Positions 26,313 through 35,227 of a stretch of DNA of 35,227 nucleotides are shown here, one piece after another; positions within the stretch are counted from its first letter, which is position 1; each line of letters opens with the position of its first letter. Position numbers and translations under genes: made by a program. The stretch is from a virus. The notes beneath the pieces are model-generated. The model was not told the origin of the DNA, did not search any database, and was given only the letters and a program-made list of their open reading frames with translations. The DNA lies in IMG/VR virus record IMGVR_UViG_3300045141_000031, positions 1 to 35,227 of that record, one strand, 5' to 3'.

Positions 26313-29300
26313 CTAGACCTCGGCATCGAGCACCGTGATCTTCTTGACCTTGATCTCTCGGGCTGCTCTCCAGCCCTTCTTGACACCCTCGACGAGGATG
26401 ACATCTTTGTTGAGGTCGATCTTCCAGAGCTTGTCCTTCATGCGCGGGTAGAGCCAGCGGTCTACGCGGAGCGACAAGATGTCAGTGCCGTCGTAGCCCG
26501 CCAGGAGCATCCACTCGTTCAACTCCGGATCCTTGACCTCACTCCGGTCTAGCTCCTCGCCGGTACGGGCGCGGTTGACCTCAAATATGTCGCGGAGGTT
26601 CTTGTGGACAGCTACGCCTAGCCAGACGATGGGTTCGTCCGGGCCACGCTCGTATGGAACCTCAATCGCGGTATGCGTAGGGATCGGCAGGTTCAGACGC
26701 GGCAGTTCGGCTCTGACCGCTGCGATCATATTGTCAAGTTTCTTGATCCCAAACGGATCTTCCATCGTCGCGTTCTCGACTATGTTGATGATCGTCTTCG
26801 GTCCGATGCCGGGGATCTCGATGAGTGAGTCCCAGGTGATCTTTCGTCCGTTGACTCCATCGCGCCAGTCAGTGATCTTCTTGGCTACCTTCGGGCCGAT
26901 GCCTTCGATCTGGTCGAAGCCTGGACGCAACTCGCGCTCGCCGTCACGCTTCCAAGTCTCATCGGAGCGGAGGAGATCGTATGGCAGAATCTTGAAGCCA
27001 TGGTGGATAGCGTCACGCAGCATAATGACGTGTCCGTCGATCTTCGCCTTGGTTGTCACCGTCGCCTTGGTGTTCGCCGCGCGACCGCTCTTGCCCTTCC
27101 GGTCGGCGCGAGGTAGCATCGCCGCGTAGAAGATGTCGGGGTGGTGTCTCTTGAACCACATCGTCCACCAGGCAATGTAGCCGTAGGAGCAGGAGTGCGC
27201 GAAGTTGAAGGCGTAGGATCCTGAGGTGATCAGATCGCCCCAGATCGACTTGGCCATCTCCTCGTCGATTGCCTCCACGTCCTGCCGCTCATGAACGGTC
27301 AGGGCTCCGTCGCGGAACCGTTCCCACTGACGATTGAACTCCTGGTCGCCGAGCTTACGGCTGATGATCTTACGGATGTAGGCGGCGTGTGTCCAGTCAA
27401 AGTTCCCGATCTCGCGGACGATGCGGAGGATCTGTTCTTGGTAGACGATCTGGAACTGAGTGAACTCGGTGATAGCTGCGAGCGCCGGATGCTTGATCGT
27501 CGGTTCCTTGACGCCGCGCTTGATGTCAACGTAGTCCGCCACCGCTCCGTTATGTAGAGGACCAGGCCGCGCGAGCGCAGTAACGTGACAGACCTCGGCA
27601 AAGTCGTCCGGCCGGACGGAGCCGTTCACCATTCGCATCGCGCGGCCTTCGTACTGGAAGATGCCGACAACATCGTTCTCCTTGAAGCCCTCGACTACTA
27701 CGTCGTCCACGATGGGTATGTCGTACATGAACTTCGCCTTCTCCCCTAGCATCCGGCACATCGCTACGAGAGCGTCAATCGCGGAGAGTCCGAGCAGGTC
27801 GATTTTGAGAATACCTAGATGCTCCGAGTCGTACTTGTCAATAGCGATCACCTGGAGCATCCTGCCCTTCACTTCGCGTTCGATGATCGAAGTGACCTCG
27901 GTGATCGGCTGGTTGGAGACTGCGACGCCGGCAGCGTGGATCCCGAAGCCTCGGACGTTGCCCTCCAACTGCGTCGCCTTCATGATGTTCGGGTGACGAT
28001 CAACTACTCCTTGCGCTTGCTCAAATTGCTCAATCGTATCTTCGATTGTGGCGGACGCTCTAAGATCACCGGAGGATCGCTCAAGTAGTACGTCCTTGAT
28101 CTGATCAACCTCAAACTTCGGGATACGATAGACCCGAGCAACGTCATCAAGTGCGATCTTGCTCTTGTAGGTTGAAAAGGTTCCAATGTTGGAGACACGT
28201 TCTCGTCCGTACTTTGTAACCATATAATCCACGATCTCTCCGCGCCTGGTGGATTCAAAGTCAAGATCGATGTCCGGTAGATCCTCACGGGTGATGTCGA
28301 TGAATCGCTCGAAAACGAGATGCGGGAATAGCATCGGGTTGACTTCCGTAATCCGTAGTAGGAAACAGACCAAGCTTGCCGCCGCACTCCCGCGTGCCGG
28401 ACCAACTCCAATGTCCGCATCCTTGGCGAACTTGACCAGGTCCGAAACGATAAGGAAGTAATCGGCATAGTCCTTCTCCTTGATGATTGACATCTCGTGA
28501 CGTAGGCGAGCTTTGTAAGCTCGGGACTCGCGCGGAGTGAGCTGGTCGAAGCCCCGATACTTCCAGCCGTCATTGATCCAACGCTCCATCAGCTGCCAGA
28601 TGTCGTCGTACCCCGGTGGGAGCGGGTAGCGCACCATCGGCAAATGCGGAATATGGACATTGCAGTCCTCGGCGATCTCTGCCGTCAGATTGATCGCTCT
28701 GATTGCTTGGTCGCGCGGGATCCCGGTCTCGCAGAGTAGCCTGAGCAAATGGCGGTCGTTCATGGGTGGGCAGAGCTCAGCCGAGTAACCCCAAGACCGA
28801 GCCTGCTCCTCAGGCGTCTGCTTACCGCCGCCCCGAATCGAGTGCAGGACTTGCTGCATCTCCTTCTCAGTCGGCATCGTGTAGTGACAGTCGAGAGTGG
28901 CTACCATCGGGATGCCTAGCTCGCGAGAGATGCGAGCGATCATCGGGTTGGCCTTCCGCGTTAGGTCGAGCGCCGGAAATGCTTGCACCTCAAGCACGTA
29001 GGCGCTGCCAAGGGCACGCTGGAAGCGAGCCGCAACCCCCAACCCACGTCGGTAGGAAGCACTTTCTGCGGGAATGTGTTTGCCGCCAACCAGCGAAGTG
29101 AAGAGCAGGCTGCCCTGGCATCCGCTGAGAACAACAAGTCCGGATCCATGCCGCCCGAGCATAGATCCAGAGACAGTTGGTTCATAGTAGAAACCCTCCT
29201 TGTAGCTGTCGGATACGAGTTGCAGAATGTTCTGGTACCCCTCCTGGTTCTTGGCGAGGACGGTGAGATGGTTCTTCAGCTGGCCTCTCCGCTCGGGGTC

Positions 29301-29690
29301 GATCTCGCCGCAGTAAAGCTCGATGCCGAAGATCGGCTTGACCCCGATCTTCTGCGCGGCCTGCTCGAACTTGACGTGGGACATCACGTTACCGTGCTCG
29401 GTCATCGCGAGCGCTGATCCGTTCAGTTCGGAGATCCGCCGGCAATGCGCCTCGGGCAGGGCGTAGCCGTCCAGGAATGAGTAGGTCGAGTGGTGATGGA
29501 GCGACACGAACCGCATCGGCTTCGTGATGCGCGGGTTACGGCGCGTGCGGGGCTCGATGCGAACGAGCGCCGGGTCATCGTGCTTGTGTCCGTACGCGCC
29601 GAGCTTCGCGTGATCGGGAGACTCGCCGCGCTGGATGCGCCCGCTTGAGGTTAGCTTTGCGTGCCCAGGACTCTCACCGCGTTGAATCAA
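26313..29690 (-). CDS. dnaE: DNA polymerase III alpha subunit (DnaE-like)
   Basis: A 1125-residue replicative polymerase of the bacterial C family. An N-terminal PHP domain starts near residue 59 (RFVSLHHHSTYSFLDGY, MTEHGNV, GIELYCGEID) with metal ligands apparently intact, so it may proofread. The palm has PARGSAAASLVCF, the catalytic PDIDLDF (Asp473, Asp475, Asp477) and Asp631 in ILKIDLLGL. A tandem helix-hairpin-helix lies near 925-978 (IEGIGPKVAKKITDWRDG; IEIPGIGPKTIINIV). The TTG start at 29690 overlaps the stop of the upstream microprotein; a Met at residue 59 is the alternative start. Confidence 0.95.
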   Translation of the reverse strand: MIQRGESPGHAKLTSSGRIQRGESPDHAKLGAYGHKHDDPALVRIEPRTRRNPRITKPMRFVSLHHHSTYSFLDGYALPEAHCRRISELNGSALAMTEHGNVMSHVKFEQAAQKIGVKPIFGIELYCGEIDPERRGQLKNHLTVLAKNQEGYQNILQLVSDSYKEGFYYEPTVSGSMLGRHGSGLVVLSGCQGSLLFTSLVGGKHIPAESASYRRGLGVAARFQRALGSAYVLEVQAFPALDLTRKANPMIARISRELGIPMVATLDCHYTMPTEKEMQQVLHSIRGGGKQTPEEQARSWGYSAELCPPMNDRHLLRLLCETGIPRDQAIRAINLTAEIAEDCNVHIPHLPMVRYPLPPGYDDIWQLMERWINDGWKYRGFDQLTPRESRAYKARLRHEMSIIKEKDYADYFLIVSDLVKFAKDADIGVGPARGSAAASLVCFLLRITEVNPMLFPHLVFERFIDITREDLPDIDLDFESTRRGEIVDYMVTKYGRERVSNIGTFSTYKSKIALDDVARVYRIPKFEVDQIKDVLLERSSGDLRASATIEDTIEQFEQAQGVVDRHPNIMKATQLEGNVRGFGIHAAGVAVSNQPITEVTSIIEREVKGRMLQVIAIDKYDSEHLGILKIDLLGLSAIDALVAMCRMLGEKAKFMYDIPIVDDVVVEGFKENDVVGIFQYEGRAMRMVNGSVRPDDFAEVCHVTALARPGPLHNGAVADYVDIKRGVKEPTIKHPALAAITEFTQFQIVYQEQILRIVREIGNFDWTHAAYIRKIISRKLGDQEFNRQWERFRDGALTVHERQDVEAIDEEMAKSIWGDLITSGSYAFNFAHSCSYGYIAWWTMWFKRHHPDIFYAAMLPRADRKGKSGRAANTKATVTTKAKIDGHVIMLRDAIHHGFKILPYDLLRSDETWKRDGERELRPGFDQIEGIGPKVAKKITDWRDGVNGRKITWDSLIEIPGIGPKTIINIVENATMEDPFGIKKLDNMIAAVRAELPRLNLPIPTHTAIEVPYERGPDEPIVWLGVAVHKNLRDIFEVNRARTGEELDRSEVKDPELNEWMLLAGYDGTDILSLRVDRWLYPRMKDKLWKIDLNKDVILVEGVKKGWRAAREIKVKKITVLDAEV
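29588..29690 (-). repeat. Tandem IQRGESP-HAKL repeat at the polymerase N-terminus
   Basis: The first about 33 residues of the polymerase frame contain two copies of IQRGESPxHAKL (IQRGESPGHAKLT and IQRGESPDHAKLG). The DNA copies differ mostly at third codon positions (for example CAACGCGGTGAGAGT versus CAGCGCGGCGAGTCT), which suggests selection on protein. The motif resembles short GE.....AKLT signatures found in NUMOD/HNH-linked proteins. It precedes the PHP domain and is not a normal part of DnaE. Confidence 0.6.
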
Positions 29691-30729: not shown

Positions 30730-31480
30730 CGAAGACCTCGTTGTAGACATGGTGGGTGAGGACCTGCTTCTTCCAGGCTCCGAACCGTCCGACCTTCATG
30801 ATCTGCGGCCAGCAGTCGCAGTTGGTGAAGAGCGGTTTGTAGCCTTCGACAACATCGCCACTCTCAACCGGGATCGAATACTCCCAAGATCGGAAACCCT
30901 GGATCTGACTGTACCTGTACCACTTCGGCCCGACTTGTCCATACTTCCCGTCGGCGGTCCAGCCGTTGTAGTGCATCACGTTCCGATCCGTTACGCCTTC
31001 CATCCTCTTGATCCAGATCTTCTGTGAGTCGAAGGAATGTCGATCCGGTTGAGCGCAGATCGTCGTCGCCGGTATGGACGAGATCACCTTGTCGTGTCCG
31101 TCGCAGATCGAAGCGAGGACGGTCAGTGTTATGTTCGCAGGGATGATCCGGCCCTGCCACTTCCACCAGAGCTTGTCGTATGTCTTCCGGAGATCCCAGG
31201 CCGGGAATGGCCCAACCTCGAATTTGTCCCAAGAGACGGGATACTGAGGATCGCCATAGACGTTCTCCGCATATCCCTCACGGACTCCGCTCTTGTATAT
31301 CTCGATCTCAAACTCGGGCGATAGTCCTGACACGCCGGGAATCGACGTATGCATGAACATCGCGCCGCTGATCACGCTCTTCTGGTTCATTGAGTAGACG
31401 ACCACGTTGTGTCCTAGCTCGTTCGCAGCGTGCGCCGCGAGAAGCCCGGATGGTCCGCATCCAAGGACAGCGATGTTCAC
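30716..31480 (-). CDS. NAD(P)/FAD-binding Rossmann oxidoreductase-like protein
   Basis: A 254-residue protein starting at GTG in a GTGA overlap with the primase gene. The N-terminus IAVLGCGPSGLLAAHAANELGHNVVVYS is a dinucleotide-binding fold with GxGxxG (Gly7, Gly9, Gly12), but the usual acidic residue after the second strand is replaced by VYS. Later parts include VISSIPATTIC and an end FGAWKKQVLTHHV, like the GR.g.W ending of UDP-galactopyranose mutase or amine-oxidase-type flavoproteins. It is shorter than typical FAD enzymes. Substrate unknown. Confidence 0.7.
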   Translation of the reverse strand: MNIAVLGCGPSGLLAAHAANELGHNVVVYSMNQKSVISGAMFMHTSIPGVSGLSPEFEIEIYKSGVREGYAENVYGDPQYPVSWDKFEVGPFPAWDLRKTYDKLWWKWQGRIIPANITLTVLASICDGHDKVISSIPATTICAQPDRHSFDSQKIWIKRMEGVTDRNVMHYNGWTADGKYGQVGPKWYRYSQIQGFRSWEYSIPVESGDVVEGYKPLFTNCDCWPQIMKVGRFGAWKKQVLTHHVYNEVFDALQ

Positions 31481-34263
31481 CAGTGGACCTCCCTCAAGAT
31501 CCGATGTAGCGTTGGTTGTACCACGTTATCAGCCCCCTCTTTAGCGATCATACGAGTGTTCCAAAGTTGGTTGATGATCGCGTTGGCCATCTCTCGGTCT
31601 GCGTTCATAACCTCCTCTACATCTTGACGACGGAAGCGGCCGTTGGTCCGCAGTAGCTTGGCCAGGCCGCGTCGCTCCAACAGGAAGCGCCGGATCTCCT
31701 CGGAATGGTCCTCTGCCTCCTCAATCTCAAGTAGCCGCTCGCGCGACCGCTCCTCATATCCGAACGCCGGCATCCCGTAGAGGAGAGTCATGAACGCTAC
31801 TGCGTCCTCAACGTGAGCTTTCGTCACGACGACCTTCTCGTGAGAGGCGTCGGTGCTGAACAACCTCGCCGCGAGCGCGACCGCGAGGCGAGCGATCTTG
31901 ATGCGGATGTTCGCGGCCTGGACCAGCGGCGGATCCTCTATGTAGTTCTCGCCCATGACGAGCGCGTGTTTGTAGACGGCATCCTCGGCTCCGCGAGCCC
32001 AGACGATCTGCTCGGCCTGCCGAGTCCAGACCCACATCAGAAGAGTGTGGCACGCCTCCGACGTGAAGCGCAGATTGCCGGCTGGCTCGGACGGGCGGTT
32101 GATGACCTCAGCCGCTACGTCGCCCATCGTCACCGCCATCGCGAGATCGAAGCGGGCGATGTCCTCGGGGTTCCCGATCAGCGGCCGTAAGGCATCGACG
32201 CCGTACGTGTACTGCGACATACCGCCGTGTCTCGGGTTCCCCATCCAGAGAAGCCGCGTCCGAGCGAACGTGACATCTTGTTCGATCTTCGTCAACTTGG
32301 CGACTCCGGATCCTCGGATGTCGGACATCCTGGCGATGTCTTCTGGGTGGAGTCCGCTGATCTCGTCAATGACGACGAGTCGCCGGTCGTTGATCGGGAT
32401 AACGCCCCAGGTGATGACCCACTCCTTGCCGCCAACCTGCTGGAGACCGCCGACGAGACCCGCAATCGTAGCCGCCTCACCGCCGACGACCTCCCCGGCC
32501 CCAAAGTGCCGAACAAAGCGTTCAGCCGCTTCGGATTTTCCAGTTCGTGTATCGCCTGCGATGATCGTTTCAAGCCATCCCCGATGTTCAATTTTGCCCC
32601 CAAACTTGAACGAGAGTACGGAATGGAATGTCAGATCCATTACTGCATGCATCTCCGGACGGCCGAGGATCCGGGTAACGTGCTCCGCCAACTGGCGGTT
32701 GATCTCTCCGAGCTTCTTGAGTGGTCTCTGCCCGCGTCGGACCTGGAACCGTTGCATCAGCTTGATCGACTCGGGTGTGATCTCAAAGCGGTCTACGCTT
32801 GTTTCCTGCTTCTCGACCTCCCAGGCTAGGAACTCGTTATGCTGATCCTTCGGGTTGGGATACAGCGCCCCGGTAGCTACGACGGTCATGTTAGAGGAAG
32901 TGTCATGACGGCCTACGCTCGTTAGCTTGATGTTCTTATACTCGCGGGCCTTCGTCCCGTCCGAATGATCGATGCTTGGACGGCCATAGAGGACCTCGAC
33001 AGCTTGGTGTTCCGTGACCTCGATATCGAGCTTGTTGCACTTGATGGCGCCGTACTCGTCGCGTATCAGATCAGCTACCTGTCCTGCCGTCGCGTCGAGC
33101 AGCTTGAGGATCGTAGGACTCGCTGCGCTGATCTCCAACTCGGCCGATCCTTCCGCCGCGTACAGCGGGCAGATAGGACACTTCGTCGGGCCGGCATCGC
33201 GCGTACAGGTAAGTCTTGACTTGAGGGGAATTGAGTAACCGGGCTCCTTGCGTCCCTTGATCGTTACCTGGACCTTGACCGGCTCGCCGACCTTCTTCGC
33301 ATCGAACGTCTCCAGCACGGTGATGATCTCCGGCTCACGACGCTCAGCTACCTTCTGCCTCCACGGACGGGCATCCGCGAGGAGAGATTCAAAATCGGCC
33401 CGGTCGTGCTCCAGCCAGAAGTCGGTCAGATCCTTTCCATGCTTCGTCTCTACCGGATATGGGAGATCGACTAGGCGGACATCCGCTACGCGCGTCAACG
33501 CTCGGGCGATCTTGGTCGTGCCCTTCTGTCCCTCGGTGTCGCGGTCGAGCGCGACATAGACGAGCTTGTCCTTGAACATAGCCGTCCATTTCGAGTGCCA
33601 GTTGTTCGCTGCGCCAGCGGTGCGAGTGACCGCCGGGAAGCCCATCTGGATCGTCAGAAGCGTGTCCCATTCTCCTTCGCCGATCACGATGCGATCCGCG
33701 TCAGCGAGGATCGAGACCGGGTAAAGCTCGGTTGGTCTCATGCCGGCCACGTTCCAGATTTTGGTGTCGGCATACGGGTTCGGGTTGTAGCGGCGCAGGT
33801 TCCAGATCTCGCCGTCCGCTCCACGAATGGGGATCGTGTAGACGTTCCGGTCTAGGTCCCATCCGATGTCGTACTCCATGAGCGTCTTGGTATGGATCCC
33901 GCGCTCGGTGACGAGGTAGTCGAGCGCATAGTCACTCGACAGGAGCGCCGACGACCAACCCTTGATCATGCCCTCGGTGATAACCTCGGTCGGTCTCGCG
34001 CTGGAGCGCCGGGAATGGCCATTCGTGCTGGCCACCCCCGGCTCGACCCAACGCGACCGTGCCCGTATCAGGTCCAAGACTCCTCCGCCACCGCAACCCG
34101 CGAAGCAGTACCAGGTTCCGGTCTTGACGTTGAGCGAGGCAGACCGCTTGTTCTTATCCTCGTGGAGAGGGCAGAACATATCCCATTCACCGTTCTCCTT
34201 CGGCGTGTCGCCGACGAGGTACGGCTTCAGAGCCTTGATGTGTCTATCCGATACCTTGGGCAC
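31477..34263 (-). CDS. Primase fused to an MCM-like AAA+ helicase
   Basis: A 928-residue replication protein. Residues 31-57 are a CHC2-type primase zinc finger (Cys31, His34, Cys53, Cys57). A TOPRIM domain follows at about 188-275 (IVIGEGEWDTLL; VYVALDRDTEG). The middle (about 340-450) has a Cys-containing fold (CPICPLY) like an OB/zinc region. The C-terminal helicase has Walker A GDTRTGKS (570-577) and Walker B VVIDEIS (Asp633, Glu634), then GSGVAKLTKIEQDVTFARTRLLWMGNP, the MCM-style hairpin and sensor. GTG start at 34263 with weak ribosome site. Confidence 0.88.
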   Translation of the reverse strand: MPKVSDRHIKALKPYLVGDTPKENGEWDMFCPLHEDKNKRSASLNVKTGTWYCFAGCGGGGVLDLIRARSRWVEPGVASTNGHSRRSSARPTEVITEGMIKGWSSALLSSDYALDYLVTERGIHTKTLMEYDIGWDLDRNVYTIPIRGADGEIWNLRRYNPNPYADTKIWNVAGMRPTELYPVSILADADRIVIGEGEWDTLLTIQMGFPAVTRTAGAANNWHSKWTAMFKDKLVYVALDRDTEGQKGTTKIARALTRVADVRLVDLPYPVETKHGKDLTDFWLEHDRADFESLLADARPWRQKVAERREPEIITVLETFDAKKVGEPVKVQVTIKGRKEPGYSIPLKSRLTCTRDAGPTKCPICPLYAAEGSAELEISAASPTILKLLDATAGQVADLIRDEYGAIKCNKLDIEVTEHQAVEVLYGRPSIDHSDGTKAREYKNIKLTSVGRHDTSSNMTVVATGALYPNPKDQHNEFLAWEVEKQETSVDRFEITPESIKLMQRFQVRRGQRPLKKLGEINRQLAEHVTRILGRPEMHAVMDLTFHSVLSFKFGGKIEHRGWLETIIAGDTRTGKSEAAERFVRHFGAGEVVGGEAATIAGLVGGLQQVGGKEWVITWGVIPINDRRLVVIDEISGLHPEDIARMSDIRGSGVAKLTKIEQDVTFARTRLLWMGNPRHGGMSQYTYGVDALRPLIGNPEDIARFDLAMAVTMGDVAAEVINRPSEPAGNLRFTSEACHTLLMWVWTRQAEQIVWARGAEDAVYKHALVMGENYIEDPPLVQAANIRIKIARLAVALAARLFSTDASHEKVVVTKAHVEDAVAFMTLLYGMPAFGYEERSRERLLEIEEAEDHSEEIRRFLLERRGLAKLLRTNGRFRRQDVEEVMNADREMANAIINQLWNTRMIAKEGADNVVQPTLHRILREVHW

Positions 34264-34275
34264 GTCAGGCGACTA

Positions 34276-35227
34276 CTAGAACGGTTCGCCGGACGAGTCA
34301 TCGGCCCGGAGAGCAGCAATCATCTTCTCCTTGGTCTTGCGGCCGGTGATCTTCAGTTCAGCACCCTGCTCGATACGAGTGTTGACCTCGTCGAGCAGTT
34401 CCTTGTCGGGCCACTCGTCATAGTCGTCCTCGGGCGCGGACGCGCCGCCCTCACCGCCGCCGCCTTCGACCTGCTCGGCGAACTCAACAATGTGAGCGAC
34501 CATCTTCGCGCGAGTCTTGCGGCCGGAGAGGTTGCCGGAGATCCCGAGATCGTCCATGAACTGCTTGACCTCATCGTCCGACCACTCTTCATAGTCGGCC
34601 TCGTCGGTGCTGAGGTCGGGCAGAAGCTCGGGGTCAACCTCGATGGTCGAGGTACCCTCGTCATCGTCCTCGGTCTCCTCCTCCTCAGCCTCAGCCTCTC
34701 CCTGATCCTCCAAGATCAACGCGACGGCCTTGGCGGTCGAGAAGCGACCGGCGAGCTTGATCCCGCGCTCCTGCAACTCCTCCTTGAGTTCCTCGGCCGA
34801 GAACTCGTTGAGCTCATCCTCGGTGAGCATCGTCTCCTCGTGGTCGCCTTCCGAGCCGTTGTCGTCGGTCTCGCCCGGAGCCTCGCCCGGCAAGAACAGG
34901 TTCTTGACCTTGCCCCGGTAGTTGCCGTCGAGATCGGTGTCGGCCGAGACCTTGACGGTCACCGGCTTGCCCTTGAGCTTCGTCGGGTCGATGGAGCCCT
35001 TCGGAGGCAGACCCATCGCGTCCGTGAACTCGCGCAGCTTCCAGCGGGTAGCCGGATTGTCAAGCTGGATGTACGTCCAGAGACGGGCGAACTCCTCGCC
35101 TACGTCAACGACGACCTCGATGTCGTTGCACGCCTCTCCGCGAGCGTTCTTCGTCCGGTGGGTCGCAGACGCGATCTTGCCCTTGTAGAGGGCAGGTTGC
35201 GGCTGTTCTGCGCCGCCGCCGGACTCT
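34276..35227 (-). CDS. ssDNA-binding protein with SAP-like motifs (5' end missing)
   Basis: The minus frame is open to the right edge (codons from 35226), so the gene is incomplete at its 5' end; 316 residues are visible. The first part, ALYKGKIASATHRTKNARG, then LWTYIQLDNPATRWKLREF, fits phage DUF669-like ssDNA-binding proteins. The C-terminal two thirds carry three SAP/HeH-like units separated by acidic linkers. The last residues DDSSGEPF resemble the acidic Pro-Phe tip of SSB that binds partner proteins. It precedes the primase-helicase, fitting a replisome role. Confidence 0.75.
   Translation of the reverse strand, partial: ESGGGAEQPQPALYKGKIASATHRTKNARGEACNDIEVVVDVGEEFARLWTYIQLDNPATRWKLREFTDAMGLPPKGSIDPTKLKGKPVTVKVSADTDLDGNYRGKVKNLFLPGEAPGETDDNGSEGDHEETMLTEDELNEFSAEELKEELQERGIKLAGRFSTAKAVALILEDQGEAEAEEEETEDDDEGTSTIEVDPELLPDLSTDEADYEEWSDDEVKQFMDDLGISGNLSGRKTRAKMVAHIVEFAEQVEGGGGEGGASAPEDDYDEWPDKELLDEVNTRIEQGAELKITGRKTKEKMIAALRADDSSGEPF
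34303..34830 (-). repeat. Three SAP/HeH-like motifs in the ssDNA-binding protein
   Basis: On the minus strand three copies of a short helix-extended-loop-helix motif are visible, at 34830-34705 (FSAEELKEELQERGIKLAG then STAKAVALIL), 34593-34477 (WSDDEVKQFMDDLGISGNLSG then TRAKMVAHIV) and 34422-34303 (WPDKELLDEVNTRIEQG then KTKEKMIAAL). Each has a W/F-S/P-acidic start, a hydrophobic helix, a Gly turn and R(K)T(R/K).K(M). Such motifs bind DNA or guide assembly. Confidence 0.7.

Follow-up and report, generated by a model that had tools for sequence, protein, structure and literature searches.

A predicted DUF669-type phage single-stranded DNA-binding protein with a tail of tandem SAP-like modules

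The soil phage studied here, whose lineage is related to phages that infect Actinobacteria, encodes a protein in which a DUF669-like OB core is joined to three tandem SAP/HeH modules and an acidic tip ending in Pro-Phe. The best explanation of this architecture, to which we assign a probability of about 0.72, is that the protein is a DUF669/Sak4-associated phage single-stranded DNA-binding protein (SSB) with a SAP-module tail, binding of ssDNA being suggested by its homology and predicted fold. The core, the tip and the genomic setting are of known kinds; it is the tandem SAP tail that is the new element, and no description of SAP modules on a phage SSB, or in association with Sak4, was found in the open-licence literature. 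The window analysed here is the entire virus record IMGVR_UViG_3300045141_000031 (35,227 bp), in which the SSB-like gene occupies 34276..35226 on the minus strand (316 amino acids plus stop); the reading frame runs uninterrupted from the stop at 34276 to the record edge, where its 5' end is cut off.

Recovery of the missing 5' end from the flanking contig had been proposed when the sequence alone was read, but since the record is the whole contig and ends inside the gene, this end is irrecoverable from it. Two full-length environmental orthologs (L002 and L003), which are 67-69% identical to the window protein over its whole length, start about 12 residues earlier, with M-x-x-IKYDVSDV. Judged from these sequences, the missing N-terminal part belongs to the same domain and amounts to about 12 residues; because the orthologs add no more than this, no other fold is concealed upstream, and an extra domain in the missing part is excluded. 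At the extreme end of the record ARAGORN calls a tRNA-Tyr (35153-35226, plus strand) that overlaps the 5' part of the gene in antisense; five relatives gave no tRNA call, and this one is probably a false positive.

It is clear that the OB-type, DUF669-like core suspected in the sequence-only reading is present. It comprises residues 1-115 (34882..35226, minus strand). AlphaFold2, given the window protein together with eight relatives, predicts five strands (residues 12-26, 32-41, 49-54, 88-97 and 103-111) and a helix (58-70), with pLDDT mostly 80-88 over residues 12-111 and lower values around residues 51-80; a complete ortholog modelled in the same program has the same five-strand-plus-helix core. 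The best PDB match to the core in Foldseek is PrgE, an OB-fold DNA-binding protein (8S4S, E=1.2e-5), followed by much weaker matches to RPA, PriB and SsbA, and against viral models (BFVD) many of the named matches are DUF669 proteins. The OB-type fold that characterises the DUF669 family is therefore found in the window protein by both methods. Pfam DUF669 (PF05037, gathering cut-off 21 bits) makes no call on the window protein itself and scores above cut-off on two relatives, L012 (24.7 bits) and L005 (24.3 bits), which share 42% and 38% identity with it over the full alignment; both are matched as well by PHROG 378 ('single strand DNA binding protein'). Similarity to the canonical tetrameric bacterial Ssb family is structural only, there being no match to that family in Pfam or NCBIfam, and no NCBIfam model names the protein (its single weak match there is meaningless). 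Between orthologs the core has a dN/dS of about 0.1.

The tail beyond the core carries the three SAP/HeH-like motifs that had been proposed, all on the minus strand: module 1 (residues 136-175, 34702..34821), module 2 (residues 209-254, 34465..34602) and module 3 (residues 268-312, 34291..34425). A repeat HMM built from relatives, with the window protein left out, finds exactly three matches, at residues 136-179, 209-248 and 266-314 (i-E 5e-20, 8e-11 and 5e-10). It matched none of 300 shuffled versions of the window tail, which rules out an artefact of acidic low complexity. The repeats are homologous to one another (hhalign probability 98% for each pair, and at most 6% against the OB core). 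Structure prediction, which the earlier reading had called for, returned both the OB core and three helix-extended loop-helix motifs of the SAP type, with helix pairs at 144-154/164-175, 217-227/239-254 and 274-286/299-312 and pLDDT mostly 80-90. With Pfam SAP (PF02037) module 1 alone passes in context (24.9 against a cut-off of 23.9 bits), and each module falls below cut-off when cut out singly; on the relatives L005, L014 and L012 the scores are 47, 43.7 and 36.4 bits (E 1.8e-12 to 3.9e-9). The family profile reaches solved SAP/HeH chains: Mu-like gp35 and MKL1 and, with a weaker match, Tho1; the MKL1 and Tho1 matches count as evidence for module 3. Modules 2 and 3 are SAP-like by their homology to SAP proteins and to module 1.

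Each of the modules has a net acidic charge (-6, -10 and -4 for modules 1, 2 and 3), with only +1 to +2 in the loop plus second helix. A basic loop, GRKT[RK]xK, is conserved in module 2 (GRKTRAK) and module 3 (GRKTKEK); module 1 has GRFSTAK and no strong basic loop. Module 3 is the most conserved, being present in all nine family members, and its dN/dS between orthologs (0.08-0.11) matches that of the OB core. Modules 1 and 2 have intermediate values, from 0.2 to about 1, module 1 reaching about 1 in one pair.

The modules are set apart by linkers for which model confidence is low: acidic linker 1 (residues 116-135, 34822..34881, net -7), acidic linker 2 (residues 176-208, 34603..34701, of which residues 176-198 are net -13) and a Gly/Ala-rich linker 3 (residues 255-267, 34426..34464), all on the minus strand. 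Linker 1, with pLDDT below 50 over most of its length, evolves fast, its dN/dS between orthologs being near neutral. The protein ends in DDSSGEPF (34279..34302, minus strand), an acidic C terminus closing on a hydrophobic PF, as had been noted by comparison with bacterial SSB. PF lies within the last 8 residues in 9/9 family members and also in the homologues from phages Krampus, TinyMiny and Wollypog; in the window it is terminal (GEPF) and in L005 it is followed by four residues, EGDE. As regards docking by such a tip, the partner best backed by precedent is Sak4, not replication proteins generally.

Downstream of the SSB-like gene and on the same strand lies a gene for a primase-helicase (CHC2-like, Toprim, MCM/AAA-like; 31477..34263, minus strand), and beyond it are encoded a DnaE-type Pol III alpha (26313-29690, minus strand) and ThyX. 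The polymerase is a single ORF in the window; the annotations of Krampus, Wollypog and MacGully split it into two genes. Among the relatives, L002-L007 and L012 show the arrangement (exonuclease), Sak4-like gene, SSB-like gene, primase-helicase, no exonuclease being found on the L012 contig; L014 has the exonuclease and Sak4, with no primase on the stretch examined. The gene directly upstream in relatives is Sak4-like (PHROG 124, phrog_124), and sak4 adjoins the SSB-like gene in L002-L007, L012, L014, Krampus and Wollypog, a setting that is usual, not universal, for DUF669 SSBs. In the window the sak4 gene is out of view because the record ends inside the SSB-like gene. The DUF669 similarity and the synteny with Sak4 together support an SSB role.

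The family consists of the window protein and eight further environmental members with two or three modules each. A search for phage proteins of the same layout, also recommended earlier, found three modules in L002-L005 and L012 as well as in the window; in L006, L007 and L014 only module 3 is clear, accompanied by one weak module. BLAST searches of cultured phages with the window protein, L012 or L014 gave no match, and the cultured relatives were identified instead by way of the adjacent primase and Sak4. These are a protein annotated 'hypothetical' in the same slot of the Microbacterium phages Krampus and TinyMiny and the Arthrobacter phage Wollypog, on which the repeat model scores 6.8, 16.7 and 10.6 bits (best shuffles 2.2, 4.2 and 2.9). 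The view that SAP motifs on an SSB are a non-standard layout is therefore right in that the layout is unusual, but it is not unique, given the eight environmental members and the related forms in Krampusvirus and Wollypogvirus. PHROG 3724 also seems to have a similar core-plus-module layout. Related SSBs in the same slot of BSTP5, P1201, MacGully and Turuncu have no recognisable SAP modules, and the basic function can therefore do without them. A scan of genome contigs found no relative and, at that sensitivity, no bacterial or prophage copies.

Two side observations concern these relatives. L006 and L007 lie on one contig (IMGVR_UViG_3300046533_000294, 129,757 bases) as diverged copies of the replication module with about 83% DNA identity, spaced about 64.9 kb apart, close to half of the contig, an arrangement that reflects either an assembly chimera or the joined genomes of two related phages. 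Directly after Sak4 in Corynebacterium phage P1201 (gp69; L019 3746-4369) and in Stickynote (gp53; L021 3724-4344) stands a gene annotated 'methyltransferase' (PHROG 9460). The former scores 19.9 bits with DUF669, just below cut-off, and the latter has only weak SSB-family similarity; both look like DUF669-type SSBs and the label is probably a misannotation.

The closest functional precedent is the SSB of phage HK620 (HkaK), a DUF669 protein encoded beside sak4 that has been purified and shown to be an SSB; its C-terminal NDYPPF is needed to stimulate Sak4, and removal lowers recombineering tenfold (PMC5928155). The window protein shares with it the DUF669-type core, the sak4-adjacent gene and the acidic tail with a PF tip. 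The HK620 protein is not known to carry SAP modules, and the tip function measured there would be carried over to the window protein by homology. Krampus gp46, TinyMiny gp50 and Wollypog gp49 share the slot between Sak4-like and primase-helicase genes, the acidic linkers, one or more SAP/Rho_N-like modules and a ...TPF, LPF or PPF end; they differ in having one clear module and a possible second of another subtype, and are too diverged for a BLAST match. PrgE of plasmid pCF10 (PDB 8S4S/8S4T), the solved structure that best matches the OB core, is about 145 amino acids long, lacks SAP modules, and binds ssDNA and dsDNA about equally (PMC11137577). The top viral structural match is gp45 of Serratia phage Serbin (L023 28821-29792, minus strand), with a DUF669-like core, two tandem acidic SAP/Rho_N-like repeats of about 57 residues each and the shared order exonuclease, Sak4-like gene, gp45. 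It differs in having an additional C-terminal segment in place of a PF tip, and its repeats barely exceed shuffles with the repeat model (6.4 against 5.8 bits). The SAP domains of SDE2, RAD18, Tho1 and MKL1 have the same helix-extended-helix form, although these are eukaryotic and sit on unrelated proteins; SDE2 and RAD18 act at replication forks, and their SAP domains prefer ssDNA, with an affinity of about 1 uM, via the loop-helix junction (PMC9399289).

From the anatomy, homology, gene order and selection, which are observed directly, we infer every binding activity in the following scheme. By homology, the OB core most probably coats ssDNA during copying and recombination. The GEPF tip, by homology with the NDYPPF reported for HK620, most probably recruits Sak4; the primase-helicase and the DnaE-type polymerase are possible further partners. 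Less certainly, the SAP modules could add weak nucleic-acid contacts through the basic loop of modules 2 and 3, and might hold ssDNA or a ss/ds junction beside the coated strand and so help retention, bridging or annealing; before ssDNA binds, the acidic linkers might hold the tail away from the OB groove. The SSB of phage Enc34 is kept from binding dsDNA by its acidic tail (PMC5686142), which would fit the acidic linkers of the window protein.

What the modules bind is the less certain part of this scheme. As they are net acidic, weak contact with ssDNA or a junction appears likeliest, and protein docking is its main and serious rival. Against a nucleic-acid role stand this charge, which is weak for a DNA-binding module, the want of a strong basic loop in module 1 and the lower constraint on modules 1 and 2 than on module 3. 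According to the docking reading, the protein is the same SSB and the modules are adaptors, successive acidic helix pairs that bind no DNA but tether, with the PF tip, Sak4, the primase-helicase or the polymerase. The acidity of the modules would suit such a role, as would the fact that module 3 and the tip are the most conserved part of the tail, and in other SSBs the acidic tail, on which the modules lie here, is reported to be the protein-docking part (PMC5928155, PMC5686142). This is possible but the less probable reading, as the SAP domains of the nuclear proteins MKL1 and Tho1 are among the closest solved profile matches, the basic loop recurs in two modules and Rho_N-like modules occupy the same slot in cultured homologues.

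Alternatively, the modules may bind duplex DNA, so that the protein bridges coated ssDNA to adjacent duplex at forks or annealing junctions. SAP domains are classically regarded as duplex-DNA binders, and PrgE binds dsDNA as well as ssDNA (PMC11137577); we nevertheless consider this unlikely, as all the modules are net negative and the acidic tail of Enc34 suppresses dsDNA binding (PMC5686142). Far less probable still is that the protein is no SSB at all but an OB-fold nucleic-acid-binding protein with another role, for example in transcription or packaging of virion DNA. OB folds are functionally diverse, the core of the window protein has no Pfam DUF669 match and the SAP region resembles Mu-like gp35, but such a role is hard to reconcile with the conserved exonuclease-Sak4-(SSB-like gene)-primase neighbourhood, the matches of relatives to DUF669 and SSB families and the SSB-type tip.

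An SSB tail is usually viewed as an acidic, disordered arm that bears a docking tip. In the SAP-tailed SSB proposed here the tail has modules predicted to be folded, of which one is under conservation as strong as that of the DNA-binding core, and SAP-tail modules are found again in a phage lineage in which the homologues have no annotation beyond 'hypothetical'; a function is thereby suggested for the corresponding gene of Wollypog and of at least 36 Microbacterium phages. Tentatively, these proteins may belong to a class of phage SSBs whose tandem SAP tail actively handles ssDNA or a ss/ds junction and catalyses annealing with Sak4, a class that would extend over actinophages and perhaps to phages of enterobacteria, with module number and type varying. 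If the modules do bind DNA, a small protein together with its cognate Sak4 would make it possible to test whether an SSB tail aids annealing directly.
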